Shown: positions 10,683 to 35,288 of the stretch, in pieces
Numbering within the stretch: position 1 is the stretch's first letter
How the letters are laid out: each line of letters opens with the position of its first letter
NCBI GenBank assembly: GCA_030057555.1
Contig: JASGUU010000005.1
Location: 1 to 51,342, forward strand
Direction of reading: 5' to 3'
Length of the DNA stretch: 51,342 bases
Source: Bacillota bacterium
GTDB taxonomy: Bacteria > Bacillota > Clostridia > Saccharofermentanales > Fastidiosipilaceae
Notes under the pieces: model-generated
Database searches by the model: none
What the model saw: the letters and a program-made list of their open reading frames with translations, nothing else
What the model was told of the DNA's origin: nothing
Translations under genes and position numbers: made by a program

Positions 10683-11323
10683 TGGGGTGCACGTCAGGAG
10701 TGTAGGGAGGCGGATGAGCAGGCCAGGAGGACGGCTGGCAGGGGAGAAAGGCAGCCTGCGGAATTCTGGTGGTCAAAACGAATAGAAATCCAAAAAATGT
10801 TTTGGAAAAGTCGCCATCTTGACCACAAAGGGGTCGTTTCTGGTCAAAACGAAGAGAAATCCAAAAAGCGATTTGGAAAAGTCGCCATCTTGACCACAAA
10901 AGGGTCGTTTCTGGTCAAAACGAAGAGTAATCCAAAAAGCGATTTGGATTACTCGCTGTCTTGACCACAGAGGGAAGCGCACGCCGCGCAGCGGCGTGCA
11001 GGCCGCTGCGCGGCGTGCAGACCGCTGCGCGGCAGGCTGCTCGTCGGACTGCCTTAATCCTGCTGCATCAGAGCAACAGAACCTGGATCGCTTCACAATC
11101 CCCTTGAAAGTACCAGGTCGTGCCCGCTGTCTTCGTCGCTCGCTACCCTGGCGCATAGTATTCATATTTCGGCCTCTTGTGAGGCTGACCACTGCGCAGG
11201 CAATTTGAGAAGTGATCTTTCATATGCCTGCAGGCAGGTTATACATGACTTTGGTGTTTCAGGTGTTTGAGGAAGGCTCGGAAATGACTTTACCCGTCCC
11301 GGCAAATATGATGTGCACACCCG
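10683..11323 (+). mobile_element. Dispersed non-coding element, copy A (MITE-like)
   Basis: About 640 bases that recur in reverse complement at 26345-26946. Shared landmarks include CCAGGAGGACGGCTGGCA (10723-10740), CCTGGATCGCTTCACAATC (11082-11100), the palindrome TGCCTGCAGGCA (11225-11236) and GTGTTTGAGGAAGGCTC (11263-11279). The ends are inverted repeats: GGGTGCACGTCA at 10685-10696 on the left and TGATGTGCACACCC at 11309-11322 on the right. Inside are three 71-bp hairpin units (10770-10967) and a strong GC hairpin, GCACGCCGC-GCA-GCGGCGTGC, at about 10979-10999. No transposase or conserved ORF is present. It abuts the rimP promoter. A miniature inverted-repeat element is my inference; target-site duplications are not evident. 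Confidence 0.7.
10770..10967 (+). repeat. Three tandem 71-bp hairpin units in copy A
   Basis: TGGTCAA begins at 10770, 10841 and 10912, and the matching TTGACCA ends at 10825, 10896 and 10967, so the period is 71. Each unit also has an inner ATCCAAA/TTTGGA stem. In the third unit the two stems join into an almost continuous hairpin, with GAGTAATCCAAA paired to TTTGGATTACTC. Units are separated by a 15-base GGGTCGTTTC-containing spacer. Confidence 0.9.
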
Positions 11324-26344: not shown

Positions 26345-26946
26345 GGTGGGTGCACGTCATATCTGTCGGGACAGTTAAAACTTTTGAGCCTTCCTCAAAC
26401 ACTTGAAACACCGGAGCTTTAGCGCAGCCTGCCTGCAGGCATAGGAAAGATCCCTTCTCCCAATGCCTGTGTGGCGATCAGCCTCACAAACTGCCGGAAT
26501 GTGATGTGAATGGGATTAGGAATAGGATAGCAGGCAGCGAGGCTGACAGGCACGACCTGGCACGTTCCAGGAGATTGTGAAGCGATCCAGGTTTTGTTTC
26601 CTGATGCCGAGTAAGGCGATTCTGATAAGCAGCGCGCCGCGCTACGGCGCGCCCGTCTTCGTGGTCAGGATGGCGAGTAATCCAAATGTTTTTTTGGATT
26701 ACTCTTCGTTTTGACCAGAAACGGCCCCTTTGTGGTCAAGATGGGGACTTTTCCAAATGATTTTTTGGATAACTCTTCGTTTTGACCAGAAACCGCCCCT
26801 TTGTGGTCAAGATGGCGAGTAATCCAAATGATTTTTTGGATTTCTCTTCGTTTTGACCACCAGAAGTCTGCAGGCTGCTTTTTCCCCCTGCCAGCCGTCC
26901 TCCTGGCACACTCACCCGCTTTCCGACACGCTTGACATGCACCCCC
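26345..26946 (-). mobile_element. Dispersed non-coding element, copy B (MITE-like)
   Basis: This is the reverse-complement counterpart of copy A. Matching landmarks on the plus strand are GAGCCTTCCTCAAACAC (26386-26402), TGCCTGCAGGCA (26430-26441), GATTGTGAAGCGATCCAGG (26573-26591) and TGCCAGCCGTCCTCCTGG (26889-26906). The ends are inverted repeats, GGGTGCACGTCA at 26348-26359 and TGACATGCACCC at 26933-26944, which match at 11 of 12 positions. The GC hairpin of copy A is kept as GCGCGCCG-TAGCG-CGGCGCGC, with one A-T pair changed to G-C. No ORF is conserved between the copies. The element lies directly after the rodA operon and points towards copy A. Confidence 0.7.
26662..26859 (-). repeat. 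Three tandem 71-bp hairpin units in copy B
   Basis: On the plus strand TGGTCAG or TGGTCAA begins at 26662, 26733 and 26804, and TTGACCA ends at 26717, 26788 and 26859, giving a period of 71 as in copy A. Inner AATCCAAA/TTTGGATT stems are present, and arms vary between units while the pairing is largely kept. The array has the same number of units as in copy A. Confidence 0.9.
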
Positions 26947-30065: not shown

Positions 30066-32312
30066 ATGAACACAGAACGCAACCGCACGACCGGCTCGGC
30101 CGGATCAGGGTCCCGGGAGCGCATGAGCTTCGCGGGACCGCTTCTGCTGATGCTGTGCTTCGGCACGGCGAGTGTGCTGATCCTGATTTCCCTCTACCGC
30201 ATACAGATCCAGGAGCACGAAGTCTACGCCCTGGTCGCGGATCGGCAGCATTTTCGCAGCGTCGAGGAGGTGTCCGAGCGTGGGCCCATCTATGCGGCGG
30301 GCGGTGAGCCCCTCGCCCTGACGCGCCATGTCTACACCATAGGCATCACGCCCCGGGACCTGAAATCACAGGGGGCGAAGCGCCTCGCGAGGGAGACCGT
30401 CATCGCGGACCTCGCCGCCATTCTGTCGCTCACGGAGGATGAGGTCCGGCAGGCCGCAGCGCGCCAGGAGGACAACTGGGTCTGCCTGAAACGTGATGTT
30501 GACCGCGAAACCTACGACCGCCTCGTCGCCTGGCGGCGTGAATACCGCGTCGGCGGAATCGCCATCGACCCGACCATGCTGCGTCACTATCCCCAGAATG
30601 AGACGGCTTCGGCCGTGATCGGCTTTGTTTCGCAGGCCGACGGCATGACGGGCGTGAGCGGCATCGAGGCCAGCTACAACGAACGCCTCAGCGGACGTCC
30701 CGGCTACCGGTATGCCGAGCTCGACAATTTTGGCGGCGGTCAGCTGCCCTACAGCCGCAGTACGGCCGGCAGCGGCCGTGATGGTTCGGGGCTGGTTCTG
30801 AATCTCCATCTCGGCATCCAGAAGGCGGCACAGGACGCCGTTGACCTCGCGGTTGAACGCTATCAGGCGAGCGGAGGGGGACTCGCGATTGTTCTCAATC
30901 CCCATACCGGTGCGATCCTGGGGATGGCCCAGAGTGGCGCCTACAATCTGAACGATCCCTACGCGCGCCCGGCAGGCTGGACCGGAGAGGACTGGGAACC
31001 CGAGCACGATAAGGAGGCGCTGGACTACCTCTACAGCCATGTCTGGAACAGCCGCGCCATCACCGACGGCTATGAGCCCGGTTCCACGTACAAAGCCCTG
31101 ACGGCCGCCATCGCCCTGGACCTCGGCCTCGTCGGCGAGAACGAGGTCTTCTCCGACGATCCCGTCTGGGTGGAGGGCTGGACGGAGTACCCGATCTCCT
31201 GTTCCGTCGAGGGCGGCCACGGTCGGCGCACACTGGCCGAAGGCCTGGAGACCTCCTGTAACCCGGTTTTTGTGCAGCTCGCCCTGCGCATCGGCTGTGA
31301 GCGCTTCTATGACTATGTACGAGGCTTCGGCCACCGGGCTCCTACGGGCATCGATCTGCCCGGCGAAGCTTCGGGCCTCATCCACAGCAGCCCCATCCCC
31401 ATCGACCTCGCGGTCTGGTCCTTCGGCGAGCAGGCGACCGTGACGCCGCTGCAGCTGCTGACGGCTTTCGCCGCCTTCGCCAACGACGGCGTGCTGATGC
31501 GCCCGCAGATTGTGGCGCGCTTCCTGAGTCCGGACGGCGAGACCGAGGAGGCCGTCGCCCCGGAGGCCGTGCGTCAGGTGATCTCCGCCGAGACGGCCGC
31601 CAGCATGCTGACGCTGCTGCGCGGTGTGGTTGCCCGGGGCACCGGTGAGGTCGCTGAGGTGCCGGGCTATCGTGTGGCGGGGAAGACCTCGACTTCCACT
31701 CATGGCGAGAACGACGAGTACGAGGTGATCTCCTTTGCCGGCCTGGCTCCGGCCGCGGATCCCGAGATCGCCGTGCTGACGGTTCTCTACGAACCGCAGG
31801 CCTCGAGCGCCTCCTGGCCCGCCCAGATCGCCTGCCGCACGATCATCGATCAGAGTCTCGGGCTGCTGGGTGTCCGCAAATCCTGGACGGACGCGGAGCT
31901 CGCCCGCCTCTTCAGCCCCCAGCCCATCCGCGACGTGGTCGGTCAGACGGTTGGCGAGGCCGTCCGCCGCTCCCCCATCGTAAACTGGGAGGCCAGCACG
32001 GCAGCCGGCGTTGACCTCGACAGCGACCAGAGGGTCCTCGCCCAGTATCCGCCGCCCGGTACGCTGACCTCGGGCAGCGGAAGCTTCTATGTTTCTGTCG
32101 ACGGTACGATCCCGGAGGATCCGGTGCCGGTGCCGGACTTTGCCGGACTGGGCCTTGAGGAAGCCCTGCGCCTGGCCCGGCGCAGCGATCTCAACCTGCG
32201 CCTCGAGGGCACGAATCCGCGGGGTGTGGTGACGGGTCAGTCACCGCAGCCCAGCAGTCAGAATACGGGCAGCGTGAGACGCTTTGATGTCATTACGCTG
32301 CATTTTGGGTGA
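30066..32312 (+). CDS. ftsI: Class B penicillin-binding protein with two PASTA domains
   Basis: A 748-residue FtsI/SpoVD-type transpeptidase. An N-terminal membrane anchor lies at about 23-44, followed by a PBP dimerisation domain (RGPIYAAGGEPLALTRHVY). The transpeptidase domain has S340-T-Y-K343 and S397-C-N399. The third motif is K540-T-S542, where nearly all PBPs have KTG or KSG. Two PASTA repeats occupy about 620-748 (RDVVGQTVGEAVRR and VPVPDFAGLGLEEALR). It cross-links septal peptidoglycan with FtsW. It lies eight bases after ftsL. PASTA domains are typical for Gram-positive members. A SpoVD role in sporulation cannot be excluded. Confidence 0.93.
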   Translation: MNTERNRTTGSAGSGSRERMSFAGPLLLMLCFGTASVLILISLYRIQIQEHEVYALVADRQHFRSVEEVSERGPIYAAGGEPLALTRHVYTIGITPRDLKSQGAKRLARETVIADLAAILSLTEDEVRQAAARQEDNWVCLKRDVDRETYDRLVAWRREYRVGGIAIDPTMLRHYPQNETASAVIGFVSQADGMTGVSGIEASYNERLSGRPGYRYAELDNFGGGQLPYSRSTAGSGRDGSGLVLNLHLGIQKAAQDAVDLAVERYQASGGGLAIVLNPHTGAILGMAQSGAYNLNDPYARPAGWTGEDWEPEHDKEALDYLYSHVWNSRAITDGYEPGSTYKALTAAIALDLGLVGENEVFSDDPVWVEGWTEYPISCSVEGGHGRRTLAEGLETSCNPVFVQLALRIGCERFYDYVRGFGHRAPTGIDLPGEASGLIHSSPIPIDLAVWSFGEQATVTPLQLLTAFAAFANDGVLMRPQIVARFLSPDGETEEAVAPEAVRQVISAETAASMLTLLRGVVARGTGEVAEVPGYRVAGKTSTSTHGENDEYEVISFAGLAPAADPEIAVLTVLYEPQASSASWPAQIACRTIIDQSLGLLGVRKSWTDAELARLFSPQPIRDVVGQTVGEAVRRSPIVNWEASTAAGVDLDSDQRVLAQYPPPGTLTSGSGSFYVSVDGTIPEDPVPVPDFAGLGLEEALRLARRSDLNLRLEGTNPRGVVTGQSPQPSSQNTGSVRRFDVITLHFG

Positions 32313-32316
32313 CACC

Positions 32317-33804
32317 ATGCAAAGCCAGAACAGCGACCACCGTGACCTCGCCCGGCTGCTGGCGGGACTGGAAACCCTCCATGTGGAGGGACCCGCCGCC
32401 GGTGCCGTGCGGCGTCTGGCCTACGACAGCCGCCAGATCCTCGCCGCGAGCCTCTTCGTCGCGATTCCCGGAGAACGTCTGGACGGTCGCCGTTTCGTAC
32501 CCGAGGCCATCCGCGAAGGTGCCGTTGCCGTCGTCTATCAGGCGGCGGACCGGGAGATTGCCCGCAGCCTCGCCGCCGGCTGGCGCGAGGCTGCCGCAGC
32601 CGGAGCCGACAGGCTGACCTTCGTCGCCGTGAAGGATGCCCGCCGGGCACTCGCCCATCTTGCCGTACGCTTTTTTGACCGTCCGCCTGACGAGCCGCAG
32701 CTCTGGGTTGTCTCCGGGCCTGCCGGCACACGGACGCTGGCGGCGATGCTCCACGCTGCACTTGGCCAGCTGGGCATCCGGGCAGGCCTCGTGGACGGCA
32801 TGCGCCTCATGATCGGCGGCGAAACACGGTATGCGACGCGCAACCACCCTGAAGCTCCCGAGATCGAGGCCATTCTCTCGAGCTTTCGCGATGCCGGCGC
32901 CCGGCGTGCCGTGCTCAGCTTCGCGCCCGGGGATCTCGCGCATGCCCGGGCCGCCGGACTCGTTCCCGAGGCGACCCTGCTGACCGGGCCCGTGGCGGCA
33001 GCAGCTGAGCTGGCAGCGGCCGGCGACTGGGTGCAGACGGCCGTGAGTCATACACACGTGACGGCGGCGGGACGCGTGGCCGCCGAACTGCGGGCAGCGG
33101 ATCTCGAACTGCTGCGGGTGGACGGCCGTCCCGGGACGGGCTTTGCCTGTACAATTGATGGGTGCAGCCAGAGACTGGAACTGGGCCTGCCGACACGCTT
33201 CATGGTGGCTAACTGCCTGCAGCTGCTGCTGGTGTTCCGGCTCGCGGGACTGCCCACGAGGCCGCTCCTGCCCTGGCTGCGGACGCTCACGCTGCCCGGC
33301 CACCTCGAGATGGTGCCCAACGATCTCGGCTGTGATCTCTATATCGATCACGCCTGGACGGCCGCGGAGCTGGAGACACTGCTCGTTGAGCTCCGGCCGC
33401 ACTGCCGCGGCCGCCTGGTCGTCGTGGCCGGCGCCGGCGGCGATCGCAGTGCCCGCCCGCGGCGCCTGCTGGGCCGGACGGCCGCCCGTCTCGCGGATGT
33501 GGCCGTGCTGACGAGCAGTAATCCCCGCTCGGAGGGAGCGGATGCCATCGTGCGCGACCTGCTGGCTCAGACCGGCGGCGGCCGGGCGACGGTCCTCGGC
33601 ATCGCCGATCGGGTGGAGGCCATCCGGTGCGCCGTCGGGCTGCTCGAGCCCGGCGACCTGCTGCTGCTGGCAGGGAAGGGAGACGAGAGCTTTCGCATGC
33701 ACGCCACCGCCACCGAAGCCTATTCCGACCGCGCGGTGCTGGAGACGGCGCTGGCGCGACGCTCTGCCGGAGCGCAGGCGGACGGAGAAAGGGGATGTCG
33801 ATGA
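32317..33804 (+). CDS. Degenerate MurE-like Mur ligase homologue (probable pseudoenzyme)
   Basis: A 495-residue protein in the normal murE position. Fold landmarks of MurE remain: LAYDSRQILAASLFVAIPG in the UDP-binding domain, HPEAPEIEAIL, and the C-terminal run with RLADVAVLTSSNPRSEGAD. Catalytic features are missing. The P-loop G-T-x-G-K-T-T is G134-P-A-G-T138-R-T140, so the lysine is lost. The EVSSHAL block is replaced by VLSFAPG (199-205), and the central HxD region is absent. The Asp of DNPR is Ser (S401-N-P-R), and GKGHE reads GKGDE. It is intact, well placed, and coupled to murF by an ATGA overlap, so it is probably expressed. An ATP-dependent ligase activity is unlikely; a structural or regulatory role is my inference. 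Confidence 0.8.
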   Translation: MQSQNSDHRDLARLLAGLETLHVEGPAAGAVRRLAYDSRQILAASLFVAIPGERLDGRRFVPEAIREGAVAVVYQAADREIARSLAAGWREAAAAGADRLTFVAVKDARRALAHLAVRFFDRPPDEPQLWVVSGPAGTRTLAAMLHAALGQLGIRAGLVDGMRLMIGGETRYATRNHPEAPEIEAILSSFRDAGARRAVLSFAPGDLAHARAAGLVPEATLLTGPVAAAAELAAAGDWVQTAVSHTHVTAAGRVAAELRAADLELLRVDGRPGTGFACTIDGCSQRLELGLPTRFMVANCLQLLLVFRLAGLPTRPLLPWLRTLTLPGHLEMVPNDLGCDLYIDHAWTAAELETLLVELRPHCRGRLVVVAGAGGDRSARPRRLLGRTAARLADVAVLTSSNPRSEGADAIVRDLLAQTGGGRATVLGIADRVEAIRCAVGLLEPGDLLLLAGKGDESFRMHATATEAYSDRAVLETALARRSAGAQADGERGCR

Positions 33805-35288
33805 CACAGAGCTATCTGATTGACGAAATCCGGGAGGATCTCGCCTGCCCGCTCTACTGTGGCGGTGTTCGGCTGGATGCCGCCGGTCCGGAGCACAGCT
33901 TCTGCGGCGTCTCGACGGACAGCCGCAGCCTCGTACCCGGCAATCTCTTCATCGCTCTGCGCGGCGAACGCTTCGACGCCCACGACTTTCTGGATCAGGT
34001 GGCGGGACGTGCGGCCGCCGTCATCATCGACCGCACCGCCGCCCTCGATAAACTGCCGGCAGATCTGCCGGCTCTGCTGGTGCCGGATACGATGACGGCG
34101 CTGGACCGGGTCGCGTCCTGGTACCGCCGCCGCCTCGGGGCCCTCGGAGCCCGGGTGGTTGCCGTTTCCGGCAGTGTGGGGAAGACGACGACGCGTGAGA
34201 TGGTGATCGCCGCTCTCGGACGCCGCTACCGGGTGCATGGCACGGCCCAGAATTTCAACAACCATATCGGCCTCGCGCAGACCCTCTTCGCGGCACCGGA
34301 GACGGCGGAGGTGCTGGTGCTGGAGCTCGGTATCGACCAGCCCGGAGACATGGATGTGCTGGGTGCCGTGGCGGCTCCGGACATCGCGGTCCTGACCTCG
34401 CTCGGCCTCTCCCATGTCGCCCACTTCGACGGCCGTGAGGGCATCGCCCGCGAGAAACTGCGGCTGCTGGCGCATGTCGCTCCAGGCGGCGCCTGGATTC
34501 TCAACGCCGACGAGCCGCTGCTTCTGCAGGCGGCCCGGGAAGCGGGTGACATCAGCGTGACACTCGTCTCGGATGCCGCCGGCGTACCCGCCGGTCTGCC
34601 TCCGGCGGCGGCGCTGCTGCGGGCCTTTGACATCGAACTGCAGACTGCGGGCACGCGCTTTGCCGTCGCACTGGAAAACGTGGAGCCGGCCCGCACCTGT
34701 GCGCTGCCCGCCGTCGCACTCCAAGTCGCCGGCCGCCATCAGGTGCGCAACGCCCTCTTCGGCCTCGCCGCGGCCCGGCTTCTCGGCGTCACGCCGGAGG
34801 ATGCGGTGCCGGGCCTCGGCGACTTCGTCGTGACCGGTGATCGCCTGCGTCTGGTTGAAATTCCGCCCGTCACGGTGATCAACGACGCCTATAACGCGAG
34901 TCTGGAATCGATACGGGCAGCCCTGGACTTTATCGACACCGTAGCCGCCGGCAGAAGGCGGGTTGTCGCCATCGGCGGCATCGCCGAACTCGGGGCGCAC
35001 AGCGACCGGGTGCACGAGCAGGTCGGGCGGGCGATCGCCCGGACGGCTCCCGACTGGGTTCTGCTCTCCGGACCCGACGCGGCGGCCATGGAGCGGGGGC
35101 TGAGAGCGGTTCCGGGCGGAGAGGCGCTCCGCTGCCGGAGCTTCGCCTCGCGCGCTGAACTCGAAACGGCCCTGACCGCGGGCGTGCGCCCCGGCGATGT
35201 TATCCTGCTGAAGGCTTCGCGCACCTACGCCTTCGACCGCCTGCTGGAGCCGCTCAGACGCCGCACGGAGGAGCTTTCGCATGTCTGA
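33801..35288 (+). CDS. murF: UDP-MurNAc-tripeptide-D-alanyl-D-alanine ligase
   Basis: A 495-residue MurF. The N-terminal domain has GVSTDSRSLVPGNLFIALRGERFDAHDF. The ATP loop is intact as GSVGKTTT with the lysine at K128, in contrast to the upstream murE-like gene. NFNNHIGLAQTL, LELGIDQPGDM, and C-terminal VINDAYNASLESI and GGIAELGAHS are MurF hallmarks. It adds D-Ala-D-Ala to the UDP-MurNAc tripeptide; the dipeptide is made by the Ddl encoded near the window end. The start at 33801 follows AAAGGGG and forms an ATGA overlap with the previous stop. It overlaps mraY by eight bases. Confidence 0.97.
   Translation: MTQSYLIDEIREDLACPLYCGGVRLDAAGPEHSFCGVSTDSRSLVPGNLFIALRGERFDAHDFLDQVAGRAAAVIIDRTAALDKLPADLPALLVPDTMTALDRVASWYRRRLGALGARVVAVSGSVGKTTTREMVIAALGRRYRVHGTAQNFNNHIGLAQTLFAAPETAEVLVLELGIDQPGDMDVLGAVAAPDIAVLTSLGLSHVAHFDGREGIAREKLRLLAHVAPGGAWILNADEPLLLQAAREAGDISVTLVSDAAGVPAGLPPAAALLRAFDIELQTAGTRFAVALENVEPARTCALPAVALQVAGRHQVRNALFGLAAARLLGVTPEDAVPGLGDFVVTGDRLRLVEIPPVTVINDAYNASLESIRAALDFIDTVAAGRRRVVAIGGIAELGAHSDRVHEQVGRAIARTAPDWVLLSGPDAAAMERGLRAVPGGEALRCRSFASRAELETALTAGVRPGDVILLKASRTYAFDRLLEPLRRRTEELSHV

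Follow-up and report, generated by a model that had tools for sequence, protein, structure and literature searches.

What does a protein do that stands at the place of MurE in the dcw cluster and has lost the residues by which a MurE works? MurE is essential in peptidoglycan bacteria and is a drug target, and a place in the dcw cluster guides annotation. The question is raised by a gene, here called MurE-d, in a stretch of 51,342 nucleotides from a Bacillota bacterium of the family Fastidiosipilaceae (contig JASGUU010000005.1 of assembly GCA_030057555.1), the whole of which was analysed and is referred to as the window. A sequence-only reading of this DNA had described an intact gene with the MurE fold and operon place kept and the catalytic residues changed, next to a murF with a normal P-loop, and had taken it for a conserved, translationally coupled pseudo-ligase that might serve precursor synthesis as a scaffold or regulator.

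The gene is intact as described: its frame runs from the ATG at 32317 to a TGA at 33802-33804 without any internal stop. The order of the cluster is mraZ-rsmH-ftsL-PBP2x-MurE-d-murF-mraY-ftsW-murG-ftsQ-...-ftsZ (most names given by eye), which places MurE-d between a PBP gene and murF, and the P-loop of murF is indeed normal (Table 1). The proposed coupling stood in part, given that the ATGA overlap between MurE-d and murF is present in four of the five genomes carrying MurE-d (the window, L016, L017 and L018) and absent in the fifth, G043. Pfam matched the N- and C-terminal Mur ligase domains of MurE-d and left the middle domain unmatched. With the murE model TIGR01085, MurE-d scored 221.1 bits, below the cut-off of 257.3, and the G043 protein 257.7 bits, which is 0.4 over it. 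Elsewhere in the window, a 60-bp tandem repeat (2177-2394; 3.6 copies, 96% matches) and two arrays in which a 71-bp unit is repeated about three times in tandem (10770-10974 and 26657-26859) were observed; a further 71-bp array lies on another contig of the same genome (G000:C44, about 111-444; L190). The 71-bp arrays, seen in these three places, are about 85% related to each other and their units are partly self-complementary.

Table 1. Features of the MurE-d locus (positions in the window; residue numbers of E. coli MurE or MurE-d as indicated by context)
Feature	Position	Strand	Basis or remark
PBP2x/FtsI-like gene, upstream	30066..32312	+	Named by eye; stop 4 nt before MurE-d start
MurE-d (murE-position pseudo-ligase), 495 aa	32317..33804	+	ORF; NCBIfam/Pfam; fold; dN/dS
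Former P-loop GPAGTRT (canonical GTNGKTT); Thr138 replaces Lys119	32716..32736	+	Alignment
MurE-d-specific invariant Gly161-Met162-Arg163 (canonical T-V-x)	32797..32805	+	5/5 MurE-d
MurE-d-specific RNHPEAPE; Asn176-His177 replace T157/T158	32839..32862	+	RNHP, PE in 5/5 MurE-d; TT in 25/25 canonical
Former EVSSHAL block LSFAPGDLAHAR; Glu182 lost, Arg192 (Arg211 in MurE-d) kept	32914..32949	+	Alignment
Trp347 replaces canonical His359	33355..33357	+	W in 5/5 MurE-d, H in 25/25 canonical
SNPRSE, former DNPRxE (D413->S); Arg404 (E. coli Arg416) and Glu406 kept in 5/5	33517..33534	+	Alignment
GKGDE, former GKGHE, His lost; Gly-Lys-Gly in 5/5, Glu468 in 4/5 MurE-d	33673..33687	+	Alignment
murF, P-loop intact (GSVGKTT)	33801..35288	+	murF start and MurE-d stop overlap (ATGA)

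The P-loop, the carbamylated lysine and the DNPR motif of MurE are described in the portion of PMC3829189 that was available. Residues were mapped onto E. coli MurE (NC_000913), and in this alignment the P-loop Lys, the EVSSHAL block, the His-Asp region, the DNPR Asp and the GKGHE His, all of which had been named as changed, proved to be altered. In the window protein EVSSHG has become SFAPGD (E182 to S), and DHLDYHG is deleted together with carbamyl-Lys224. Glu182 is a residue that we take to belong to the Mg site, and the roles ascribed below to Ser28, Thr157/158, Arg192 and His359 are likewise assumed. Glu182, Lys224, Asp209/His210 and His359 are missing in all five MurE-d proteins, and the P-loop Lys in four of them; G043 retains the latter (GTSGKRT) with Glu182, Lys224, His210 and His359 gone, and by these motifs its MurE-d looks like an intermediate. 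As controls, we used the full-length best matches to MurE-d among 138 genomes, which belong to two related families (f3 and f4); 25 of the 26 proteins fetched were counted, a fragment from G168 being dropped, and each of Lys119, TT, Glu182, Lys224, His359 and DNPR was found in 25/25. In a third family, f2, Lys119, TT, Glu182 and Lys224 were each present in 20/20 MurEs (from 20 of the 38 f2 genomes). The best 29 class-level matches besides the window likewise retain the P-loop Lys, 28 of them by pattern and one by eye. A sequencing error is unlikely, since similar losses recur in four relatives. Judged by its sequence, MurE-d is catalytically dead.

Of the 12 family genomes, five carry MurE-d between PBP and murF (G000, which is the window genome, G047, G041, G042 and G043); these carriers span three genera and all frames are intact, in agreement with the conservation that had been proposed. 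When 63 MurE proteins were placed in one tree, all five MurE-d grouped in a single clade (support 100/99), which is sister to the 25 canonical f3/f4 MurEs (98/95); the program gave a warning of long branches, that of the G043 MurE-d among them. At the f3/f4 loci murF adjoins murE in 24/25 cases and a PBP end in 16/25 (short stretches), and MurE-d is therefore best read as the old MurE of the cluster. Putting descent and predicted fold together, MurE-d is a MurE by both, and not by catalytic criteria. The carriers themselves form one clade (100/100) in a tree of dcw proteins from 11 family genomes. Where MurE-d is missing (seven family genomes), murF comes directly after PBP in six; the dcw cluster of the seventh, G048, was not located. 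A profile of the MurE-d middle domain, run on a set of 391 class genomes drawn evenly, gave 257 bits for the window, with no score above 97 elsewhere among the matches listed; the family genomes among these matches were G000, G040 and G049, and the other four MurE-d copies came from separate searches of the family. Among viral contigs, the MurE-d alignment found no relative, and each of two canonical alignments found two loci (three scans).

Pairwise dN/dS (Nei-Gojobori) was calculated for two genome pairs. The values for MurE-d, murF and the second MurE described below, MurE-c, were 0.224, 0.212 and 0.230 in G000/G047 and 0.120, 0.116 and 0.105 in G041/G042, and the three domains of MurE-d gave 0.214/0.215/0.244 and 0.086/0.146/0.113, respectively. 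As judged from these ratios, all three domains are under purifying selection, with no decay.

Which residues were kept differs from which were lost. Across the five MurE-d proteins 94 columns are invariant, of which 77 match the canonical majority and 17 differ. Ser28, Arg192, Asp356, Arg389, Arg416, Glu418 and the GKG loop (Lys465) are retained in 5/5, S184 is lost in 4/5, and the new invariants include Gly161-Met162-Arg163, Asn176-His177, Pro181, Glu182, Asp206 and Trp347 (MurE-d numbering). MurE-d thus has in common with canonical MurE (E. coli 1E8C, M. tuberculosis 2WTZ) the three-domain fold, the N-domain motif DSR/LF-A/G-DG, Arg192, Arg389, Arg416, the GKGxE region and the PBP-murF position, whereas its ATP/Mg site is gone and TT157/158 has turned into NH. 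We also counted retention over columns that are canonical in at least 23 of the 25 relatives and in E. coli. MurE-d keeps 41/45 such cells in the N-domain, 73/220 in the middle domain and 133/230 in the C-domain, and the type-A group of MurE-c (see below) 50/54, 217/264 and 136/276. The two proteins consequently differ strongly in the middle domain (33% vs 82%) and little in the C-domain as a whole (58% vs 49%), where the contrast lies in named DAP-site residues: Arg416 is present in 5/5 MurE-d vs 0/6 type-A MurE-c, Lys465 in 5/5 vs 0/6, and Glu468 in 4/5 vs 1/6. On this residue pattern, the predicted UDP- and DAP-recognition residues are selectively retained in MurE-d, a point that the sequence-only reading had missed, as it had the alternative of a heteromeric enzyme discussed below.

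A first structural model of MurE-d, built with four MurE-d sequences, was poor (pLDDT 50.3) and was discarded. The second, for which four MurFs and two MurE-related viral-contig sequences were added to the same four sequences, had a mean pLDDT of 76.8 and the three-domain fold of MurE, which bears out the fold landmarks read from the sequence. It matched solved MurEs over nearly the full length (4c13, Z 31.0; 2xja, Z 29.1; 1e8c_A, Z 27.8 over 436 residues), the lowest lone MurE among the matches listed being 7d27 with Z 23.2, and PAP11-like chains of the plant plastid polymerase were matched as well (9epc_Q, Z 32.6 across 365 residues; 8r6s_Q, Z 28.4). Foldseek ranked the same two families first. 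No pocket geometry is claimed from this model, because pLDDT falls below 50 over residues 174-181, where RNHP lies, and over 225-255.

The sequence-only reading had also suggested looking for a second, canonical murE elsewhere in the genome. A search of the window genome with two Mur ligase domain models returned MurF, MurC, MurD, MurT, FolC (by eye), MurE-d and one further MurE-like gene, MurE-c (P0003 on contig C28); PF02875 gave one additional weak match under the cut-off (C85, E 0.07). A second MurE thus exists, but with an amino-acid site that departs from the canonical one: KDTGNE stands in place of DNPRTE and GLVGRD in place of GKGHED. Its ATP-site motifs GTNGKTT, TTPD, ETSSHAL and EHLDYHG and the carbamyl-Lys are present, and a MurE-c with intact ATP-site motifs was found in 5/5 carriers. 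Given this intact site, MurE activity is probably supplied by MurE-c. The MurE-c genes are not monophyletic: a type A (G000, G047, G044, G049, G041 and G042) groups at 99/98, and those of G043, G040, G045/G046 and G039/G048 are placed elsewhere in the MurE tree, so that MurE-d is accompanied by type A in four carriers and by another clade in G043. The genes beside MurE-c (a MoxR-like ATPase and a DUF58-like gene in G000, others elsewhere; by eye) did not indicate which amino acid it adds, and nothing on the third stem residue of family members was found in the accessible parts of the literature covered. Within the order, DNPR is replaced variously in the MurEs of families f1 and f2 (DTGNE, QHSRYE, VVGHYD, DCPYDE and others), which suggests that the third stem residue may have changed repeatedly there. 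One clade of MurEs (G010, G012, G039, G048, G006, G007, G020, G023 and G024) reads DDHF or DDHIS at the position of DYAH, and its GKGHE region is longer, with QGMDAGAR as one example.

The genes for DAP synthesis were surveyed in the 12 family genomes. DapF (TIGR00652) was found in none of them, PF01678 gave nothing over the cut-off (weak matches in G040, E 0.2, and G043, E 0.36), and Ddh was found in 0/12. DapB was strong in eight and weak in G040, and is present in all five carriers; DapL was over the cut-off in six, namely the five carriers and G046. Each of these six DapL genomes has one MurE-family protein bearing Arg416, which is MurE-d in the carriers and the single MurE, a MurE-c, in G046. 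Arg416 is also present in G045, a genome 75% complete in which DapL was not found above the cut-off. Among the 20 f2 genomes, Arg416 is present in three MurEs and missing in 17/20, and dapB does not track it. Divergent neighbours dapL and murT were seen in all four carriers that were examined (G000, G047, G041 and G043), and murT was not found beside the dapL of G046. In G000 (C38; L187, 5349-8110) dapL is divergent to murT and to an SDR gene. In G041 (L188) the gene after murT is gatD-like, and no match to it was seen in the stretches from G000, G047 and G043. DapB and DapL without a match for DapF or Ddh point towards LL-DAP as an end product, and the gene content suggests that the carriers make LL-DAP and that MurE-d would be the DAP-recognising member. 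As the carriers are a single clade, their co-occurrence with DapL amounts to about one event, or with G046 to about two independent observations; an independent-pairs test of correlation comprised one pair only (11 of the 12 genomes) and gives no support.

The explanation that we favour, tentatively and at somewhat less than an even chance, is that MurE-d is a pseudoenzyme retained as a non-catalytic partner in precursor synthesis, which would bind UDP-MurNAc-peptide and DAP and be coupled to MurF. In this scheme the vertically inherited MurE of the cluster would have become unable to catalyse its ATP-dependent reaction in the common ancestor of the five-genome clade, at a time when MurE-c was present elsewhere (an order that we infer), and would have been kept for binding UDP-MurNAc-peptide through its N-domain, together with Arg192. 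The DAP-type side chain would probably be bound at the positions of Arg416, Lys465 and Glu468, the tripeptide precursor might be held or passed on to the co-translated MurF, and MurE-c might possibly be tuned as well, the putative partner being MurF, MurE-c or both. We favour this explanation because of the substrate-side residue pattern, the ATGA overlap and the existence of MurE-MurF fusions, which imply a possible benefit from keeping the two proteins close together. Such fusions (8F5D; G072, G074 and G102) join MurE to MurF and their MurE keeps the P-loop, whereas MurE-d is separate and, by its motifs, dead. In G072, G074 and G102, from one other genus of the order, murE-murF is a single frame of 993 aa with both P-loops intact (L030, L029 and L031, respectively), and open frames of about 990-1030 aa are seen at murE in several other f3 genomes. 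Against a binding partner count the retained DAP-site residues, which would equally suit a split enzyme, and G043, which lacks the ATGA and has the P-loop Lys. Loss of S184 in 4/5 and of TT in 5/5 indicates that binding of UDP-MurNAc-peptide would be at least altered, and the direct succession of PBP and murF in 6/7 non-carriers implies that those genomes do without the function or have replaced it.

The alternative that accounts jointly for the DAP-site residue contrast and the DAP gene context is a split MurE, in which MurE-d (DAP site) and MurE-c (ATP site) would add LL-DAP as a heteromer, each being weak or inactive alone. We regard it as rather doubtful, and as unlikely in the wording that a dead dcw paralogue with a DAP-recognition C-domain and a relocated paralogue with the ATP/acyl-phosphate site jointly add LL-DAP as a two-gene MurE. 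It draws on the complementary motif losses of MurE-d and MurE-c in all five carriers, on MurE-d being the only Arg416-bearing MurE-family protein found in them, on their DapB and DapL without a match for DapF or Ddh, on dapL beside murT in 4/4 examined, and on Arg416 in the single MurE of the other DapL genome, G046. There is also a known mode for it in the prozymes of trypanosomes, where AdoMetDC or deoxyhypusine synthase is activated by a dead paralogue in a heteromer according to the accessible text of PMC5201418 and PMC3663545. These resemble our case in that a dead paralogue is kept beside a live one; they are unrelated enzymes. A split is weakened by the type-A MurE-c of G044 and G049, which lacks DNPR and the GKG Lys (G049 keeps Glu468) though neither MurE-d nor DapL was found there, by the 17/20 f2 MurEs that also lack Arg416, and by the strong constraint on the C-domain of MurE-c itself (dN/dS 0.155 and 0.078). 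The similar share of canonical C-domain cells in MurE-d (133/230) and type-A MurE-c (136/276), the pairing of MurE-d with two separate MurE-c clades, and the single-clade origin of the DapL co-occurrence argue in the same direction.

A purely structural, ligand-free role, for instance as a scaffold of the divisome or of a precursor complex like PAP11, seems to us quite unlikely. PAP11-kind chains are among the best structural matches, MurE-d sits between PBP2x and murF, and many ATP-site residues are changed, but a plain scaffold would have no need of the invariant former substrate-side motifs (NHP, Arg192, Arg416 and GKG). PAP11 itself, the angiosperm MurE-like protein of plastid-encoded RNA polymerase (8R6S, 8W9Z, 8XZV), ranks by Z among the best matches of the MurE-d model, a similarity of fold only; it is a plant protein bound to RNA polymerase, whereas MurE-d is encoded in a dcw cluster. 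We consider it very unlikely that new conserved residues have given MurE-d an ATP-independent activity of a new kind towards UDP-MurNAc-peptides or DAP: Arg163, Asn176, His177, Glu182 and Asp206 are invariant and specific to MurE-d, some of them aligning with former substrate-site motifs, and DapF was not found in any of the 12 family genomes, but DapF is equally missing in the seven genomes without MurE-d and, to our knowledge, no such chemistry exists in Mur ligases. It is highly improbable that MurE-d remains an active MurE whose ATP site is unusual; the P-loop Lys of G043 (GTSGKRT), its passing of TIGR01085 by 0.4 bits and the kept fold would fit, and they are set against Glu182, Lys224, Asp209/His210 and His359 gone in 5/5, the P-loop Lys gone in 4/5, and an ATP-competent MurE elsewhere in the genome. 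We give scarcely any credence to a relic gene in slow decay, to which the lack of MurE-d in the cluster of at least 6/7 other family genomes might point. Decay, the counter-possibility raised with the original description, is contradicted by intact frames in five genomes of three genera, dN/dS of 0.22 and 0.12, near those of murF, and 94 invariant residues.

No report of a bacterial MurE pseudoenzyme was found in a search of the open-access literature, within the text that it made available. MurT of MurT/GatD is a Mur-ligase-family protein that acts within a complex, in amidation and not in peptide addition, and unlike MurE-d it keeps its P-loop. In plants MurE has been exapted outside cell-wall synthesis, and DNPR is common in most seed-plant homologues, as stated in the accessible part of PMC9434261. 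With a dcw copy that is dead by its motifs and an ATP-competent MurE elsewhere, annotation by position would be misleading in the MurE-d clade. A bacterial MurE pseudoenzyme kept by selection would be a clean case for Mur proteins acting as a complex as opposed to separate enzymes, and a split MurE, if true, would be a new architecture of an essential ligase.
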